Shown in pieces: positions 18,594-30,304 of a stretch of 32,211 nt of DNA; within the stretch, counting starts at the first letter, position 1, and each line of letters starts with the position of its first letter. The notes beneath the pieces were generated by a model. It saw nothing but the letters and a program-made list of their open reading frames with translations, was not told the origin of the DNA and did not search any database. Position numbers and translations under genes: made by a program. The stretch comes from Candidatus Zixiibacteriota bacterium (GTDB lineage Bacteria; Zixibacteria; MSB-5A5; UM-FILTER-46-8), in contig WJIJ01000018.1 of the NCBI GenBank assembly GCA_014730345.1, positions 1-32,211 of the forward strand, given 5' to 3'.

Positions 18594-18971
18594 TTGGCGG
18601 TGGTAAAAGCGATAGGAATCGATATCATAGAAATCGAACGCATCAAAAACGTTATCGATAAATGGGGTGACAGGTTTTTAAGGAAGGTCTATACCCCATG
18701 GGAAATAAGCTATTGCCAGGAAAAGGCGTATCCAGAATATTCGTTTGCCGCCCGTTTCGCGGTGAAAGAAGCGGTTTTCAAGGCCCTCGGCGGGGGTACC
18801 GAGATTGGAATTAAATGGACTTCTATCGAGGTGGTTAACCACCGGAGCGGCAAACCAATGATAAAAATGGGCGGAAAAGTGAAAGAAATCGTGGGCGAAG
18901 GGGAAATACTCATCAGCATTTCCCACACCCACCGCTACGCGGTGGCCCAGGCGCTGTTATTGGAAGGGTAG
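18594..18971 (+). CDS. acpS: Holo-[acyl-carrier-protein] synthase
   Basis: 'AIGIDIIEIERIKNVIDKWGDRFLRKVYTPWEISYC', 'YSFAARFAVKEAVFKALGGG', 'ILISISHTHRYAVAQALL'. TTG start with aggagg upstream. Confidence 0.93.
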   Translation: MAVVKAIGIDIIEIERIKNVIDKWGDRFLRKVYTPWEISYCQEKAYPEYSFAARFAVKEAVFKALGGGTEIGIKWTSIEVVNHRSGKPMIKMGGKVKEIVGEGEILISISHTHRYAVAQALLLEG

Positions 18972-18972
18972 A

Positions 18973-20217
18973 TTGAGAAAGGTTATTGTTGACAAGGCCG
19001 AAAGGCTCTACCGCATTCCCCCGGCAATATCGGCGGACTCGTTTCTGCTGTCCCGGGGCCAGAGGTTCCGGCGAAGGGAGATAATCGACTTGGGCGATGT
19101 TCGGCCGGAGCTGTTCGCGCATCCCGATTTTTCCGGGGAAGCCGGCGCTATACTGGGCAGTCCCGCCTTGCGGCGGAACGCGGCGTTAGAAGAGCTACAT
19201 AACCTCTATGAAAAATTATCCAGGTTTTACAAGGCGCGCTATAGCATCAAACTCAATCCCAAAACATCCTTCTCGCTGCTAAGCGCGGGTTTGCCCGGGG
19301 AGCTTATGCTATGCCAGGGACTGATCAACCCTAAAGATGAAGTAGTGATCACCGATCCCTCATCCCCGGTTTTCATGCAGGCCGCCGTTCTCGCATCCGC
19401 CTCAGTGATAACTATTCCGGCAAGCGAGCGAACCGACTACCTGCCCATGCCTGAACTTCCCGAGTTGGAAAAACACAGGAAGATAAAACTGAAATTCGTA
19501 AATTACCCCCACAATCCCACCGGCGCGGCCGCCGACAAAAACTACTTCAACCGCCTGGTTAAAGCCGCCTCGGAGGGTGATTATCTTATTTGCCACCGCA
19601 TGGGATTCATGGGGCTAAACCATGATACAACCGAACATCCTTCGATACTGGAATCGCCGGGCTCGAGGAAAACAGCGGTGGAATTAACAGGGTTCGACCT
19701 CGGATTCGGACTGCGTAATCATTATCTTCAGTTCGCGGCCGGTTCACCGGATGCCATCTCCGTGCTTGCGGAGACCGACGCTTTATTCGGAGAAACGATG
19801 CCATACTGTCTTGTCCGGCTCATGGAAACGGCCCTCGATTATTATGATGACGCTTTAACCAAGTATACGGAAATCATAGGGTCAAACGCCGAGCTTTTGA
19901 GTACCGGGCTCAGGGCGCTGGGATGGAAGACTTTCATTTTCAAGGGAGCCCCTTATATATGGGCGGCGCATCCCCGCAGAACCAACTCCCTTAACCTCGC
20001 CCAGGCCATATTCAAAAGAACCGGGGTATTGGTTCAGCCGGGGGTGAGGTTCGGCGAAAACGGGGAAGGTTATCTTCGTTTTTCATTGACCGCGGAGAAG
20101 AACGAACTGCTTGAAGCCCTGGAAAGGATAACCCGTAATTTTCATCCCATACAATCCGGAAAGAAAAAAATCAGCGATATAATCAGGGAATATCGAAATG
20201 GATTCGCTAAAGATTAA
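18973..20217 (+). CDS. PLP-dependent aminotransferase fold-type I homolog lacking the PLP-binding lysine
   Basis: 'VNYPHNPTGA', 'DEVVITDPSSPVF' and C-terminal 'GEGYLRFSLTAEKNELLEALERI' are class I/II aminotransferase landmarks. The Schiff-base Lys region reads 'ELTGFDLGFGLRNHYLQFAAGSPDAI' with no Lys. Confidence 0.78.
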   Translation: MRKVIVDKAERLYRIPPAISADSFLLSRGQRFRRREIIDLGDVRPELFAHPDFSGEAGAILGSPALRRNAALEELHNLYEKLSRFYKARYSIKLNPKTSFSLLSAGLPGELMLCQGLINPKDEVVITDPSSPVFMQAAVLASASVITIPASERTDYLPMPELPELEKHRKIKLKFVNYPHNPTGAAADKNYFNRLVKAASEGDYLICHRMGFMGLNHDTTEHPSILESPGSRKTAVELTGFDLGFGLRNHYLQFAAGSPDAISVLAETDALFGETMPYCLVRLMETALDYYDDALTKYTEIIGSNAELLSTGLRALGWKTFIFKGAPYIWAAHPRRTNSLNLAQAIFKRTGVLVQPGVRFGENGEGYLRFSLTAEKNELLEALERITRNFHPIQSGKKKISDIIREYRNGFAKD

Positions 20218-20554
20218 TGGTATCAAACTATATGGCAACCATGGCGTCACCGAGGATGAGCGGCGGGTGGGCGCGCAGTATGAGATCGATGTTATCGTGG
20301 GATACAGCGAAGAACATTCCGCCAACCAGGACGAACTGAGCCATGTGGTCGATTATACTTCTCTCTATGAATGCGTTAAAAAAACATTCCAGGGCAACTC
20401 TTTCAAACTGATCGAAAGTAGCGCGGACAAGATAGCTCAGACCGTACTCGATGAATTTAACCCGGTAAGAGAAATAACAATACGCCTTCGCAAACGGCCT
20501 CCGTTCGAAGCATCAATGGATTCGGTTGAAGTGGAAATTAGCAGGAGACGTTAA
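20198..20554 (+). CDS. folB: Dihydroneopterin aldolase
   Basis: 'LKINGIKLYGNHGVTEDERRVGAQYEIDV', 'VVDYTSLYECVKKTFQGNSFKLIESSADKIAQTVLDEF', 'VEVEISRRR'. Confidence 0.9.
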   Translation: MDSLKINGIKLYGNHGVTEDERRVGAQYEIDVIVGYSEEHSANQDELSHVVDYTSLYECVKKTFQGNSFKLIESSADKIAQTVLDEFNPVREITIRLRKRPPFEASMDSVEVEISRRR

Positions 20555-20555
20555 A

Positions 20556-21056
20556 ATGGAAACGGCATACATCGGTTTAGGTTCAAATAAAGGCGACAGG
20601 ATGGAAAATCTCAAGCGGGCGGTTGCATCTATCGGCAACGACGGCTGGACCGAGGTAGTCGATTTATCACCGGTTTATTTAACAACGCCGGTCGGGGTCA
20701 GCGGCCACCCGGACTATTATAACGCTGTAATTAAGATCCATACGCACTATCCCGTTCATGAACTGCTGGATATGCTCGAGACCATCGAGCGCGAATTGGG
20801 CAGGAAAGAAAAAGGCGATCTCAAACCGAGGGAAATCGATATCGACATACTCCTTTACGGCCGGGAGATTATCAAGCATAACCGCGTAACCGTGCCCCAC
20901 ACCAGGCTCAAAGAGAGGGCGTTCGCGCTGAAGCCGTTGCTGGATATCGAACCGGAGCTAAAATGCCCTTTGACCGGAGAGGATTACTCGAGCGTGTTAA
21001 AAAGAATTCACACGGGACAAAAACTGGAAAAGATAACAGGGGAATTAGCGCTTTGA
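20556..21056 (+). CDS. folK: 2-amino-4-hydroxy-6-hydroxymethyldihydropteridine pyrophosphokinase
   Basis: 'METAYIGLGSNKGDRMENLKRAV', 'LLDMLETIERELGRKEKGDLKPREIDIDILLYG', 'VTVPHTRLKERAFALKPLLDI'. Confidence 0.94.
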   Translation: METAYIGLGSNKGDRMENLKRAVASIGNDGWTEVVDLSPVYLTTPVGVSGHPDYYNAVIKIHTHYPVHELLDMLETIERELGRKEKGDLKPREIDIDILLYGREIIKHNRVTVPHTRLKERAFALKPLLDIEPELKCPLTGEDYSSVLKRIHTGQKLEKITGELAL

Positions 21057-21697
21057 TTTTTGCATCATATATCGCTGTTGAGGGAGTAATCGGGGCTGGG
21101 AAGACAACTCTTGCCGGGGCTCTGGCTAAAAGATTCCAACTGCAACTGATAACCGAGGAAGTAGAACATAATCCATTTCTTGCCGATTTTTACGCTGATC
21201 CGGCGAGATACGCTTTCCAGGTGCAGATGTTCTTCCTGGTCAGCAGGTTCAACCAGCTTCAAAAATTATCGTTTATAGATTTGTTCAGCACCGGCACGGT
21301 TTGCGATTACATGTTCGAGAAGGACGGGATTTTCGCCCGCATGAACCTTGATGACCGCGAGTACTCGTTGTATCAAAAGATCGCCCCGCAGTTGGGCAGC
21401 GACCTGGTCAAACCGGAGCTGGTCATTTATCTCGCCGCCGAAAATAAAGTCCTGATGGAACGAATAAAACGGCGGGGCCGCCATTTCGAAAGGAATATAG
21501 ACCCCGATTATATCGCCAGGCTCAATGAGGAATACAACCGTTTCTTCCTTCATTACGACGCGTCCCCGTTACTGGTGGTTGACGCGAATTTCTTTAATTT
21601 TGTTGATAATCCAAAACATTTTCAGCATCTTGTAGAGCACATCGAAGAACCGTTCGTTGGAAGGAAGTATTTGCTTCCGGAGAAGATAGGAAAATAG
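21053..21697 (+). CDS. Deoxynucleoside kinase family protein
   Basis: 'YIAVEGVIGAGKTTLAGALAKRF', 'EEVEHNPFLADFYADPARYAFQVQMFFLVSRFNQL', 'VCDYMFEKDGIFARMNL', 'RIKRRGRHFERNIDPDYI'. Probable TTG start overlapping the folK stop. Confidence 0.88.
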   Translation: MIFASYIAVEGVIGAGKTTLAGALAKRFQLQLITEEVEHNPFLADFYADPARYAFQVQMFFLVSRFNQLQKLSFIDLFSTGTVCDYMFEKDGIFARMNLDDREYSLYQKIAPQLGSDLVKPELVIYLAAENKVLMERIKRRGRHFERNIDPDYIARLNEEYNRFFLHYDASPLLVVDANFFNFVDNPKHFQHLVEHIEEPFVGRKYLLPEKIGK

Positions 21698-21701
21698 TAG
21701 T

Positions 21702-22523
21702 ATGGAATTCGATCCCAGCAAAATATCCCGGGTCAACAGCAAGAACCTTAAAAAATTCAAAAAAGCGGGGGTAAAGATTACATGCCTGACCGCCTATGAC
21801 TACCCTACAGCCCTGGCGCTGGATAAGGTGGGAATCGACGTCATATTAGTTGGCGATACCCTGAATACCGTTTTTTGCGGAATGGAAAATAACATCTCGG
21901 CGACCATGGACCAGATGATTTACCATACATCCATTGTAAAACGCGCCTTGAAACGGGCTCTGTTAATCGGCGATATGCCCTTCATGTCCTTCCAGGCGGA
22001 GCAGTCCGAAGCAGTCCGCAATGCCGGTAGATTTTTAAAGGAAGGCGGCGCCGATTGCGTTAAGGTCGAGGGCGGACTGGAAGTTATACCGACTATCAAA
22101 AAAATCCTCGACGCGGGGATACCGGTAGTGGGTCATGTCGGCCTTACCCCGCAGTCAGTCCACCGTTTTGGCGGCTATGTTGTGCGGGGCAGGAAACCGG
22201 AAGTACGGCAATACCTTATCGAATCGGCAAAAGCGCTTGAAGATATCGGCTGTTTCTCGCTGGTTATTGAATCGGTTCCCGCCGATCTTGGCAAAGAAAT
22301 CACCGAAGCGATTGAGATACCCACTATAGGAATCGGCGCGGGCCCCGACTGCGATGGACAGGTGCTGGTTATTTATGACCTTTTAGGATTGACCACCGGT
22401 TTCAGGCCCAAATATTTACGTAAGTATGATAATTTTGCCCAACGTATCGAAGACGCCGCCGGCAGATACCTTGATGATGTCCGGCGCGGCGATTTTCCAT
22501 CCGAAGAAGAGAGTTACAGCTAA
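21702..22523 (+). CDS. panB: 3-methyl-2-oxobutanoate hydroxymethyltransferase
   Basis: 'KITCLTAYDYPTALALDKVGIDVILVGDTL', 'GDMPFMSFQ', 'ADCVKVEGG', 'VVGHVGLTPQSVHRFGGYVVRGR', 'PTIGIGAGPDCDGQVLVIYDLLGL'. Confidence 0.96.
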   Translation: MEFDPSKISRVNSKNLKKFKKAGVKITCLTAYDYPTALALDKVGIDVILVGDTLNTVFCGMENNISATMDQMIYHTSIVKRALKRALLIGDMPFMSFQAEQSEAVRNAGRFLKEGGADCVKVEGGLEVIPTIKKILDAGIPVVGHVGLTPQSVHRFGGYVVRGRKPEVRQYLIESAKALEDIGCFSLVIESVPADLGKEITEAIEIPTIGIGAGPDCDGQVLVIYDLLGLTTGFRPKYLRKYDNFAQRIEDAAGRYLDDVRRGDFPSEEESYS

Positions 22524-23377
22524 TGATCAAGACAAGTTCAATAAAAAAGGTTCGTGATTTAATCTCCGAGCAGAAGAAAAATACAAAAAGCGTAGGTCTG
22601 GTGCCTACAATGGGCGCGTTCCATGAAGGGCATGAAAGCCTTATTAAAAAAGCCCGCAAAGAAAATGATTACGTGGTTGTCAGTATATTCGTCAATCCCG
22701 CCCAGTTCGCTCCCAACGAGGATTATAACCTTTATCCAAGGGATATTAAAAGCGACCTGCTAAAAGCGGAGAACAACGGCGCCGACCTGGTATTTATGCC
22801 CAACGATAAAGTAATATACCCGGAAGATTATTCAACTTACGTTACCGTTGAAGAATTAACCGATAAACTGGAAGGTAAAAGCCGCCCGAGCCATTTCCGC
22901 GGGGTTACCACTATAGTCACCAAACTACTGAACATCGTTACTCCCGACAACGCATATTTCGGGCAGAAGGATGCCCAGCAGTTAGCGGTGGTAAAGCGGA
23001 TGGTCAAAGATTTAAATATGCCGGTTAAAATCGTGGGCTGTCCCATCATTAGGAACCAGTCGGGAATTGCCCTGTCCTCCCGCCACCACTATTTAAACCG
23101 GACGCAAATGAAAACCGCGGTGGGCATCTATGAATCGCTAAAGGAAGGCGTAAAAATGATAAAATCGGGTACGTCCGATTTCGGCGCGGTTAAAGAGCGG
23201 ATTCTCGATGTTCTCCAGAATTTCGGCATTAAACGCATCGACTATGTCGAGTTTAACAAATGGGAAAGCCTTGAACCGCTTCGCAAACCGGAAGGTAAAG
23301 TTCTCATTTCACTCGCTGTTCGAATTGGGAACACCCGCCTGCTCGACAACGTAATCCTCGACTCCCCGCGCCTTTAA
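22523..23377 (+). CDS. panC: Pantothenate synthetase
   Basis: 'SVGLVPTMGAFHEGHESLIKKAR', 'VVVSIFVNPAQFAPNEDYNLYPRD', 'PSHFRGVTTIVTKLLNIVTPDNAYFGQKDAQQLAVVKRMV', 'IALSSRHHYL'. Confidence 0.97.
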   Translation: MIKTSSIKKVRDLISEQKKNTKSVGLVPTMGAFHEGHESLIKKARKENDYVVVSIFVNPAQFAPNEDYNLYPRDIKSDLLKAENNGADLVFMPNDKVIYPEDYSTYVTVEELTDKLEGKSRPSHFRGVTTIVTKLLNIVTPDNAYFGQKDAQQLAVVKRMVKDLNMPVKIVGCPIIRNQSGIALSSRHHYLNRTQMKTAVGIYESLKEGVKMIKSGTSDFGAVKERILDVLQNFGIKRIDYVEFNKWESLEPLRKPEGKVLISLAVRIGNTRLLDNVILDSPRL

Positions 23378-25350: not shown

Positions 25351-27426
25351 CTATTTTAACAAAACCATCCGGCGGGTTATCTCACCATAACCGCTTTCGA
25401 GTTTGTAGTAGTATATGCCGGAGGCATATTCTTGCGCGTCCCATACCGCCGAATGTTCACCTGCTTCGAAATGCCCGTTGGCAATAATCTCCACCCGTTC
25501 TCCGAGGATGTTGTATATTGAAAGCTCAATGTTCTCCGGTTCAGGAAGCGTAAAGGAGATGTTAGTTCGGGCGTTGAAAGGGTTGGGGTAGTTTTGCTCC
25601 AGGCCGAATGTCAGTGGGATACCGGTCTGGTCATCCACTCCTATGCCTAACAGAGTGAAGCTCCAGAATTTCTGATTAGACGAAGTTACCCATGCCGAAT
25701 TTTGGTCGTCCGCGGTAACATACCAGTAAACCGTTTCACCGGGAATCTGTAATTCCAATTCTTCAACGCCAATACTGGTCCTGTCTCCCGCGAAGATGGT
25801 AATTGGATTTTCCATATTGGGTTCGGTATCATACACGACCCAATAAGCCACCTCATCCCCATCGGGGTCAACAGCTTCTTCCCACTCGAGGGTAAAGTAA
25901 TAATCAGCCGCCCCTGAATCAGGACCGACAAGGTCAAATACCATGGGAAGCGTATTTCCGCCGAGAGGGTTGTAAAGGCCGGTACGATGATTGTTCGCGT
26001 GATATGTTTCCCATTCCGCGGGCATGGAACCATAAAAGCCACGTTGAGCCCATACATTCACTTCCGCCATGCCTTCATAAGAAGAAATGCTCGCGTATTC
26101 CATCACCCCGTTGCGATTCAGGTCGGCCACCTGCATACCATTCATGTAGGTGAATCCCCACGGCTGAAGGGGATAAGGGTCATCCACGAAACCATCATCA
26201 TCGCAGATATAGATATTACCAAGTTGGTCCGAAGAACGGATGTGATTGTTATCAAAGGCTATGTATACATTACCATCGCCCTCGAGGTCGCCCGCGGCGG
26301 TCGGGCCTTCGGCCGCGCCATGGATAATAACCGGGAAACCGCCTACAACCGTACCATTAGTTTCAAAGGCATAGAGGTTATCAGAGGGGTAAGCAACCGA
26401 ACCAGAGACGCCAACCACGATTTCAACATCATCATCGCCGTCAATATCAGCTATTGAGGGCGGCGAATATGTCCACCGGGGGAGATAATAAGGCCAGCCT
26501 TCGAGAACATTAGCGGTATGATCGATAATAAATGCGGCCGGATTATTGCCATGATTCGCGCATACCATCTCCAGGTAACCATCGCCGGTAATATCATGAA
26601 GAGCTATCGACTGGTATGAAAAATTACCCCATGGCAGGCGCCAGGGGAATCCATCCAGGTCAGTACCGTCGATATTGACCACGTAAATGGAATTATAAGA
26701 TGTATATGCTATTTCGGGTTCGCCATCATTGTCGATATCGCCCACCGCCGCTGTACCGGTGGGAACATGATCGAGAAATACCGGCCAATTTCCGGACCAT
26801 TCAGAACCATCATATTCGATAACCCTCAAATGCCCGTTGGGATAATCACGGGTTCCAATAATAATTTCTAAAAAGCCGTCGTCATCGAGGTCATACAATG
26901 CCGGGGAAGCGGCAATGTTCTGGTTGCTGAAGTTTATCGGGAAACCATCGGCGTTCGAACCGTCGGCATCGAACATATATAACCGCCCGCCGTCAACAAG
27001 GCCGCGGGTGCCCTGAACTATCTCCGGCTCTCCATCGCCGTCAACATCACCGACAGATGGAGCTCCCTGGGCGACATTGACAACGTTGACGGGAAAACCC
27101 TCGATATAATCGCCCTCAAAATCGAAAACATGAACCCTCGAACCGGCGGAAGCGATAATGTCCATCTGACCGTCACCATCGATATCTTCAAGACAAACGC
27201 CCCGCGATGGCGCAAATTGCAAATGCGATGTTATCCGGACCGGCCAATTCTCAATCTGGGGCCAGCCGGTGGTATCCTCAAGAATAACCGGCGTTTGGAA
27301 ATAATTGCTCCCAATCTGCGGATTTTCATAGTAACCCATCTCATCGGGGCCGTAATAGCCGGCCCCCGCGAAAACCATTGCGGGAATTAATACTAAGACA
27401 ACCGCCAATAATAACCTTTTTAACAT
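25351..27426 (-). CDS. Secreted FG-GAP/VCBS-repeat protein with T9SS type A C-terminal sorting domain
   Basis: Repeated 'GDVDGDGEPEIV', 'DIDNDGEPEIAYT', 'ADIDGDDDVEIVVG' motifs. C-terminal 'LEQNYPNPFNARTNISFTLPEPENIELSIYNILGERVEIIANG...SGIYYYKLESGYGEITRRMVLLK'. Signal peptide from ATG 27426. Confidence 0.92.
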   Translation of the reverse strand: MLKRLLLAVVLVLIPAMVFAGAGYYGPDEMGYYENPQIGSNYFQTPVILEDTTGWPQIENWPVRITSHLQFAPSRGVCLEDIDGDGQMDIIASAGSRVHVFDFEGDYIEGFPVNVVNVAQGAPSVGDVDGDGEPEIVQGTRGLVDGGRLYMFDADGSNADGFPINFSNQNIAASPALYDLDDDGFLEIIIGTRDYPNGHLRVIEYDGSEWSGNWPVFLDHVPTGTAAVGDIDNDGEPEIAYTSYNSIYVVNIDGTDLDGFPWRLPWGNFSYQSIALHDITGDGYLEMVCANHGNNPAAFIIDHTANVLEGWPYYLPRWTYSPPSIADIDGDDDVEIVVGVSGSVAYPSDNLYAFETNGTVVGGFPVIIHGAAEGPTAAGDLEGDGNVYIAFDNNHIRSSDQLGNIYICDDDGFVDDPYPLQPWGFTYMNGMQVADLNRNGVMEYASISSYEGMAEVNVWAQRGFYGSMPAEWETYHANNHRTGLYNPLGGNTLPMVFDLVGPDSGAADYYFTLEWEEAVDPDGDEVAYWVVYDTEPNMENPITIFAGDRTSIGVEELELQIPGETVYWYVTADDQNSAWVTSSNQKFWSFTLLGIGVDDQTGIPLTFGLEQNYPNPFNARTNISFTLPEPENIELSIYNILGERVEIIANGHFEAGEHSAVWDAQEYASGIYYYKLESGYGEITRRMVLLK

Positions 27427-27623
27427 AAAACCTCCAGGATAAATCATCTATATAACTAATGAAATATAACCGTATTTCTTATTCTGTCAAGGGCGTATTA
27501 ACCGGCAGATATTTACTCGTTCATACACTACAAATTCAGTCAATAATATTAAAATTTATAGGAAGGCAAACCGATAATATCAGAAAGTGGGAAATCAATA
27601 ATCAAAAATAACGATATTATGCT

Positions 27624-28285: not shown

Positions 28286-30169
28286 CTATTTTAAAAGCGT
28301 TATCTTCTTCGTTTCGCTGTATTCTCCATTTCTGAACCGGCAGAAATAAATTCCGCTCGGTTGGTTGGAGGCAGACCAGGTAACTTCGTATGTCCCTCCA
28401 GCGCTATGATTTACATTCATCCGGTCGACTAACTGGCCGCCAAGATTGAAAACTTTTATCTCTATATTTCCCCCTTCGGCAATCGTGTATTTCATTTTAG
28501 CCCCCGAATTGAACGGGTTAGGATATACGTTCAGTATTTCTGTATTTTCGGGAATGTTTTTCCCTTCCGTGACGGATGTAGGCGTTCCGGTTCCATATTC
28601 GAGGATTACCCAGCGGTCAATCCCGCCGATATCATCCATAGTCCAGGATTCGGTTAATCCTGAGAGCCAGCGCACCGTAACCTGTTGTATTTCATCATAA
28701 TGACCTAACCCAAAATGAACCGGGTGCATGTTCATGCTCTGGTCTGATGATGCCGATTCCACCTGCTTTACTCCCGAACTGTTTCCATCCGGGTACAAAA
28801 TACGTATATGCGAACCGAGTCCGGTTCTCCCGCATTCCACACCATCGCCGACAAGCTGGATAACTAAATAGTGGTTATCCGCTGACAGTGAATCAAGTTC
28901 ATTCCTGAAAAGATAGATTCCGCGGTAAGCCGGTTCATTGGAATGAAATGCGATATCGAGATCACCATCCCGGTCGTAATCGGCGGAGGCGACTCCCATC
29001 AATTCGCTGAATTCCTCATCCCGGTTAAATCCTATAGAATCCTCGACCCGGTGGAAATGACCGAGGTTCTCGGGACCCTCATTCTCGTAAAAATAAGCGT
29101 CCATCCCCTCATACCACTGGGTAAGCAGTAAATCGATGTCGCCGTCATTGTCATAGTCCAGCCAGGTGCCGTTATGCCATTCCTTCTGACGGTTAATCAA
29201 CCCGGCTTCCTCGGTAACATTGGTAAAGGTGCCGTCCCCTTCATTCCGGAAAATAGCCGCCCATCCATGGATATTGGCCACCAGCAGATCGAAATCTCCA
29301 TCATTATCATAATCACCCCAGGACGCGCCACTGCTTAAACCGATACGGTAGCGGCCATGGGTTTCTACGGCTACCCCGGCGTATCTGCCGGCATCCTGAA
29401 AATAGCCATTGCCGTTGTTCTGCCACAGGTAATTCTCCCATGACGGGTCAGTCCAGTCCACGCCGTAAACGCCGCTGAAGATATCCATATCGAAATCATT
29501 GTCATAATCGCAGGCTACCGTGGAGCGCACATGGCGGGTATACTGCAGTTCCAAAAGCTCGGGGATATACTGCCCGGTAACATCGACATAAGCGCCGCCC
29601 CGCAATTCGAAATAGACATCGCGCCCCCTGCCGTAGTCAGGCGCCCAGTTGCCGAACGTTCCCACGTACAACTCGTAAATACCGTCGCCGTTGCCTTCTA
29701 CGAAAACCGGCTGGCTGGAACGGGTATTCAGGGGATTTACATATATGGGACCGCCTTCGAACCATAACCTGCCGCCCTCGATCTGCTGAAAGTAGTATAT
29801 GCGGCTGTCATAATCGGTTGTAGAATGGGAATGATTAGCGAGGGCGATATCGAGCAGACCGTCGTTGTTGACATCGGCGAATGCCGCCCGGTGTTCCGGA
29901 CCGGTTTCGATTACCGCTTCAATCCCGGTCGAATCGACAAGACTGAAAGTCCCGTCCTGATTGTTCAAATAGAAATAACATGAGCCTAAAAACAGGTCGG
30001 GATAGCCGTCACTGTCAACATCGGGCCAGGCGACCATGATTCGTCCGGTAACCTGGCTATGCGGCACACCAAGCGCCTGTTCGGTTACATTGATAAATAC
30101 GGCATTCGCGTTAATTGAGAGAACACATAAGAAGACTAACGTTAGAAAACAACCTCGGACTTTACACAT
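28286..30169 (-). CDS. Secreted VCBS/FG-GAP-repeat protein with ASPIC/UnbV-like domain and T9SS type A sorting domain
   Basis: 'ADVNNDGLLDIALANHS', 'GDYDNDGDFDLLVANIHG', 'LDYDNDGDIDLLLTQW', 'ADYDRDGDLDIAFH'. ASPIC-like 'GRTGLGSHIRILYPDGNSSGVKQVESASSDQSMNMHPVHFGLGHYDEIQQVTVRWLSG'. C-terminal 'VYPNPFNSGAKMKYTIAEGGNIEIKVFNLGGQLV...SGIYFCRFRNGEYSETKKITLLK'. Confidence 0.92.
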   Translation of the reverse strand: MCKVRGCFLTLVFLCVLSINANAVFINVTEQALGVPHSQVTGRIMVAWPDVDSDGYPDLFLGSCYFYLNNQDGTFSLVDSTGIEAVIETGPEHRAAFADVNNDGLLDIALANHSHSTTDYDSRIYYFQQIEGGRLWFEGGPIYVNPLNTRSSQPVFVEGNGDGIYELYVGTFGNWAPDYGRGRDVYFELRGGAYVDVTGQYIPELLELQYTRHVRSTVACDYDNDFDMDIFSGVYGVDWTDPSWENYLWQNNGNGYFQDAGRYAGVAVETHGRYRIGLSSGASWGDYDNDGDFDLLVANIHGWAAIFRNEGDGTFTNVTEEAGLINRQKEWHNGTWLDYDNDGDIDLLLTQWYEGMDAYFYENEGPENLGHFHRVEDSIGFNRDEEFSELMGVASADYDRDGDLDIAFHSNEPAYRGIYLFRNELDSLSADNHYLVIQLVGDGVECGRTGLGSHIRILYPDGNSSGVKQVESASSDQSMNMHPVHFGLGHYDEIQQVTVRWLSGLTESWTMDDIGGIDRWVILEYGTGTPTSVTEGKNIPENTEILNVYPNPFNSGAKMKYTIAEGGNIEIKVFNLGGQLVDRMNVNHSAGGTYEVTWSASNQPSGIYFCRFRNGEYSETKKITLLK

Positions 30170-30304
30170 AGGGACACCTCGGGATACGGATAGAAATAGC
30201 ATATTGAGTTTTAATGAGAACTGTTGTCGTTACAGTAATATAATAAATTATGTTAAATTCACAACAAAATTCTCGTTTCAGCAGGGATATAATTGCTGGG
30301 AAAG

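Follow-up and report, generated by a model that had tools for sequence, protein, structure and literature searches.

A conserved aminotransferase-fold protein family lacking the PLP-binding lysine, encoded beside folate and pantothenate genes in Zixibacteria

The lysine that forms the Schiff base with PLP is described as absolutely conserved among all aminotransferases with catalytic activity (PMC9309667). In SPT, a lysine-less subunit is paired with a catalytic partner (PMC6148460). Like the protein described here (X), this subunit, SPT1/LCB1, is of fold type I, is devoid of the PLP lysine and has long been conserved; it differs in belonging to the alpha-oxoamine synthase subfamily and in having a known homologue as its catalytic partner, whereas none is encoded with X. 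To our knowledge, lysine-less relatives of aminotransferases are few, SPT1 being the usual example. In ColD, a further fold type I protein, His takes the place of the lysine and PLP binding is retained; X, in contrast, has Leu at this site (His in 4/87 members of its family) and its phosphate cup is mostly lost. The regulators MocR, GabR and PdxR also possess an aminotransferase-like domain, used in these proteins for sensing, together with an N-terminal wHTH DNA-binding domain, while Pfam analysis of X identifies the aminotransferase domain only. The LL-diaminopimelate aminotransferase DapL (NF006756, TIGR03540) has the same fold as X and provides its top NCBIfam models, and in Omnitrophota its gene likewise lies before folK-panC. 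Unlike DapL, X is without the Lys, Asp, Tyr and phosphate Arg of the active site and scores far below the model cut-off, and it also differs from BacF, an aminotransferase of Bacillus subtilis, which keeps the SK...GWR motif. Lysine-less fold type I relatives are already known as a kind; the X family is an undescribed one in the literature searched, which covered few subscription journals and in which no description of the family was found.

The window analysed (32,211 nucleotides) spans one complete contig from the 3.58 Mb draft assembly of a Candidatus Zixiibacteriota bacterium. The gene order around X is acpS-X-folB-folK-dNK-panB-panC, with the following features:

18594..18971, + strand: acpS, holo-ACP synthase
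18973..20217, + strand: X, lysine-less aminotransferase-fold protein of 414 aa (from Pfam, alignment, predicted fold and orthologues)
20198..20554, + strand: folB, dihydroneopterin aldolase, overlapping X by 20 bp
20526..21056, + strand: folK (HPPK)
20963..21697, + strand: dNK, deoxynucleoside kinase (PF01712)
21702..22523, + strand: panB, ketopantoate hydroxymethyltransferase
22523..23377, + strand: panC, pantoate-beta-alanine ligase

The ORF of X has a TTG start codon and consists of 414 codons with no internal stops. A single base separates its start at 18973 from the end of acpS at 18971; this spacing and the overlap with folB had been described in the initial annotation, whose coordinates, residue calls and description of the ORF as intact are all correct. 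The folK and dNK ORFs (20526-21697) were called mechanically and overlap by 94 bp, and the true start of dNK therefore probably lies downstream of 20963.

X belongs to PF00155 (Aminotran_1_2, E 5.3e-20), and Pfam analysis over its 414 aa matched no second domain. Its top NCBIfam models, NF006756 and TIGR03540, are both of LL-diaminopimelate aminotransferase, and the DapL models match all 47 X members scanned. The score of X (197 bits) is far below both cut-offs (507 and 593.25, respectively), and that of TIGR03540 is passed by no Zixibacteria match. The structure prediction that had been proposed as a check was performed with AlphaFold2 on a 47-row alignment and gave a well-predicted aminotransferase fold (pLDDT 88.3, pTM 0.87). 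Foldseek searches with this model retrieved class I aminotransferases (best hit BacF, PDB accession no. 6l1n; TM 0.85, 25% identity), BacF (6l1l/6l1n) being the nearest solved structure to X by sequence as well as by fold. X is thus predicted to adopt the fold type I aminotransferase fold.

The active site was read by alignment of X and its relatives with the solved aminotransferases 6l1l, 2x5d and 2o1b, with residue roles in class I aminotransferases following PMC9309667. The family pattern SFSKTFNMAGWR aligns over GFDLGFGLRNHY of X, and the residues concerned are as follows:

19513..19515, + strand: codon 181, Asn of the NPTG motif, ring contact, retained (80/87 members; alignment)
19597..19599, + strand: codon 209, Arg at the position of the pyridine-N Asp (alignment)
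19606..19608, + strand: codon 212, Phe at the position of the ring-contact Tyr (alignment)
19699..19701, + strand: codon 243 (CTC), Leu at the position of the Schiff-base Lys (sequence and alignments)
19723..19725, + strand: codon 251, Tyr at the position of the PLP-phosphate Arg (Arg in 2/87 members; alignment)
20077..20079, + strand: codon 369, alpha-carboxylate-binding Arg, retained (84/84 readable copies; alignment)

The earlier assignment of Leu to the PLP-lysine site and of Tyr to that of the phosphate Arg is therefore borne out by alignment. The strand reading HDFAY in the solved enzymes is CHRMGF in X, and N181-P182 of the NPTG motif are kept. X shares with active class I aminotransferases the fold and the carboxylate Arg, and is without their Schiff-base Lys, pyridine-N Asp and phosphate Arg. 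The pyridine-N Asp is kept in 82/87 X members; the family of the window lacks it together with the ring-contact Tyr and the phosphate Arg, and is the only one with Arg at the Asp position, where the residue is fixed (4/4).

The distribution of X was assessed in 134 Zixibacteria genomes, which make up both the class-level and the phylum-level sample. Matches to the X profile at E<=1e-70 were identified in 118 of them. Those in two genomes (G131 and G132) are a DapL-like paralogue, leaving about 116 with X itself, and fragments or broken copies occur in three more (G044, G016 and G053). Among 87 aligned copies, one per species, the Schiff-base Lys is absent from 86, the site being occupied by Tyr (34), Phe (22), Thr (11), Leu (6), His (4) or other residues. 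This Lys is kept in all 81 relatives outside the lysine-less group and in 37/37 further loci (five genomes reached via other loci and, mainly, the phylum of the Latescibacterota locus L045), giving 118 sequence-checked relatives; no lysine-less copy outside Zixibacteria was seen among these 37 loci. The absence of Lys from X orthologues is beyond chance. It had been proposed that close orthologues retaining Lys would point to a local mutation or a sequencing error. Such an origin is ruled out by the lysine-less orthologues: the Leu codon CTC shares no base with AAA/AAG at any position, and the site is occupied by Leu, Ile and Leu in three relatives of the same family with 45-47% identity to X. 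A Lys shifted to a nearby position was also considered and rejected, as only G112 and G125 have one within five columns of the site and the window has none. The sole copy with Lys at the Schiff-base position (G024, locus L122) is nested deep in the group and lacks the phosphate Arg, and its nearest sister, at branch lengths of 0.03-0.04, has Thr at the site; this Lys is therefore interpreted as either secondarily acquired or erroneous.

In a tree of X and its relatives, built with the columns around the Lys masked and with a Lys-bearing outgroup as root, the lysine-less proteins group together as a single clade (support 100/98) that is present in 100% of bootstrap trees, for which a single loss of Lys would be the simplest history. 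The outgroup is a single long row, so the split is surer than the root. The closest Lys-bearing family is LL-diaminopimelate aminotransferase. In Omnitrophota (L034-L043), a Lys-bearing homologue is located after lysA-dapF-dapA-dapB and directly before folK-panC (dapB was named by Pfam and lysA, dapF and dapA from their sequences). This arrangement suggests, as a plausible origin, that the ancestor of X was a diaminopimelate aminotransferase whose gene was already next to folK.

Values of dN/dS for X, from close pairs, are 0.05-0.13 in every lineage where they were measurable, comparable to those of folK and panB and somewhat higher than those of folB. X is under purifying selection and is a maintained protein. 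That it is a decaying relic carried along by co-transcription with essential genes is highly improbable: many former active-site positions are poorly conserved and the gene is lost outright in a few genomes, but the reading frames are intact, X is retained in most families of the phylum and the dN/dS values are low throughout. X is cleanly missing from G019, G048 and G018, where folB-folK-panB persist, and is therefore not strictly required for the pathway. In four other genomes (G004, G102, G037 and G091) panB, folK and X are all unseen, to which gaps in draft genomes may contribute. One genome (G098) possesses two copies of X-folB-folK-dNK-panB on different contigs (L204 and L205), reflecting either duplication or a mixed bin.

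Thirty-six columns are invariant in the Lys-bearing set; of these, 12 are kept at >=90% in X and 15 fall below half. The 12 include the Asn (92%), Asp (94%) and carboxylate Arg (100%), and the 15 include the Lys (1%), the phosphate Arg (2%) and the Ser preceding the Lys (40%); the cross-subunit Tyr contributed by the partner is present in 4/87. By these columns, most members have kept the part of the pocket that contacts the ring and the carboxylate and have lost the part for the phosphate and the Schiff base, although the Asn, Asp and Arg could have been retained for folding or structural reasons. Three positions (H180, P327 and R135) are more conserved in X than in its Lys-bearing relatives. 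The surviving ring-binding residues (Asn, Asp and Tyr in most members), along with a Lys at the former phosphate-Arg position in 15/87, would be in keeping with non-covalent binding of PLP or PMP, in which case X would sense B6 or be a PLP enzyme that works independently of Lys. This is nonetheless very unlikely, given that the phosphate-cup residues are gone in most members and that the protein of the window has its Asp, Tyr and phosphate Arg all replaced.

Loss of the cross-subunit Tyr speaks against X forming a heterodimer, as the lysine-less member, with an active aminotransferase in the manner of SPT1/LCB1 and SPT2. Such a partnership is known for SPT (PMC6148460), active sites of fold type I enzymes lie at the subunit interface (PMC9309667) and other class I aminotransferases are encoded in most genomes. 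However, no Lys-bearing paralogue is located in the operon, and the closest one, which is DapL-like, was found in only 10/133 genomes, excluding it as a general partner of X. A heterodimer role, for which some other aminotransferase may serve as partner, is regarded as unlikely.

The gene immediately 3' of X is folB in 79/87 loci and dNK-folB in 4/87. Among the remaining loci, two contigs end just after X, folB lies 5.5 kb away in G005, and none is nearby in G119. Because location ahead of folB was partly used in choosing the first batch of X copies, the linkage in that batch is not independent evidence; the second batch was selected by profile score alone, and folB is downstream of X in 39/40 of these loci. 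On the other side, a class II aldolase (PF00596) was identified in the upstream flank in 72/87 loci, directly upstream in 71/87 (for example, L119, L120 and L148) and 1.9 kb away in one. The upstream neighbour is instead acpS in the family of the window, where the aldolase is absent from this position, and pyrE in family f9. Elsewhere in the genome of the window, one partial match to a class II aldolase was found (G000:C87). The acpS-X-folB arrangement put forward in the initial annotation thus holds in part: linkage to folB is phylum-wide, whereas the acpS flank is restricted to the family of the window and is usually replaced by the class II aldolase elsewhere.

The lysine-less orthologues, the aminotransferase fold and the linkage to folB support the earlier view of X as a conserved, repurposed protein of the folate/pantothenate operon. 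As the Lys has been lost yet the gene is preserved beside folate and pantothenate genes, X probably has a new job there. The reading we prefer, with moderate confidence, is that X is a non-transaminating, ligand-binding regulator or subunit of the operon, repurposed from a DapL-like enzyme. Fold, ancestry, the single clade, Lys loss, operon linkage and purifying selection were computed; from conservation and gene order we infer that X would not transaminate, would bind a ligand and would act on neighbouring enzymes. On this reading, a DapL-like enzyme lost the Schiff-base Lys and most of the PLP-phosphate cup in the common ancestor of the lysine-less Zixibacteria. X would have ceased to be a transaminase and been kept just ahead of folB-folK-dNK-panB-panC. 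The old Arg-containing pocket, which in most members also has the Asn and Asp, may bind an acidic pathway metabolite, and X may modulate or organise the folate/pantothenate enzymes. In the family of the window the ligand or binding mode has probably changed, since the Asp is a fixed Arg there. Against the regulator or subunit reading stand the three genomes (G019/G048 and G018) that lack X although folB-folK-panB remain, the further decay of the pocket in the family of the window, and the lack of any fusion of X to an operon neighbour or pathway enzyme among the loci.

The main rival is a new PLP-independent enzyme acting on pterin, pantoate or a related substrate in the emptied pocket, which we consider somewhat unlikely. 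The kept Asn, Asp and Arg, the newly conserved H180, P327 and R135, the near-invariant operon position and the strong purifying selection are consistent with catalysis. However, no obvious new catalytic motif was seen, Asp has become Arg in the family of the window, and some lineages manage without X; FolB, FolK, PanB and PanC are all encoded, so no gap was apparent at these steps. Framed more broadly, X may tentatively be seen as a new phylum-wide family, either a PLP-independent enzyme or a metabolite sensor of folate/pantothenate synthesis, that uses the old ring and carboxylate pocket without the cofactor.

Elsewhere in the window, which has no Rfam matches, a tRNA-Phe (gaa) is predicted at 26896-26972 (+) inside a 698-codon ORF of the opposite strand (25351-27447); either the true start of this ORF is further inside, as is probable, or it overlaps the tRNA. 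This ORF and that at 28286-30202 (-) encode FG-GAP repeat proteins with Por_Secre_tail, one of them also with UnbV_ASPIC. The presence of these sorting domains in two FG-GAP proteins suggests type IX secretion in the lineage of the window.

As the best NCBIfam matches of X are DapL models, its genes could be misread as encoding makers of a lysine precursor. In this family the loss of Lys is clearly placed, the site is densely sampled by natural variants, and the candidate partners are few. X would be an ancient bacterial case of a lysine-less aminotransferase relative, kept by selection across a phylum within a core vitamin operon.
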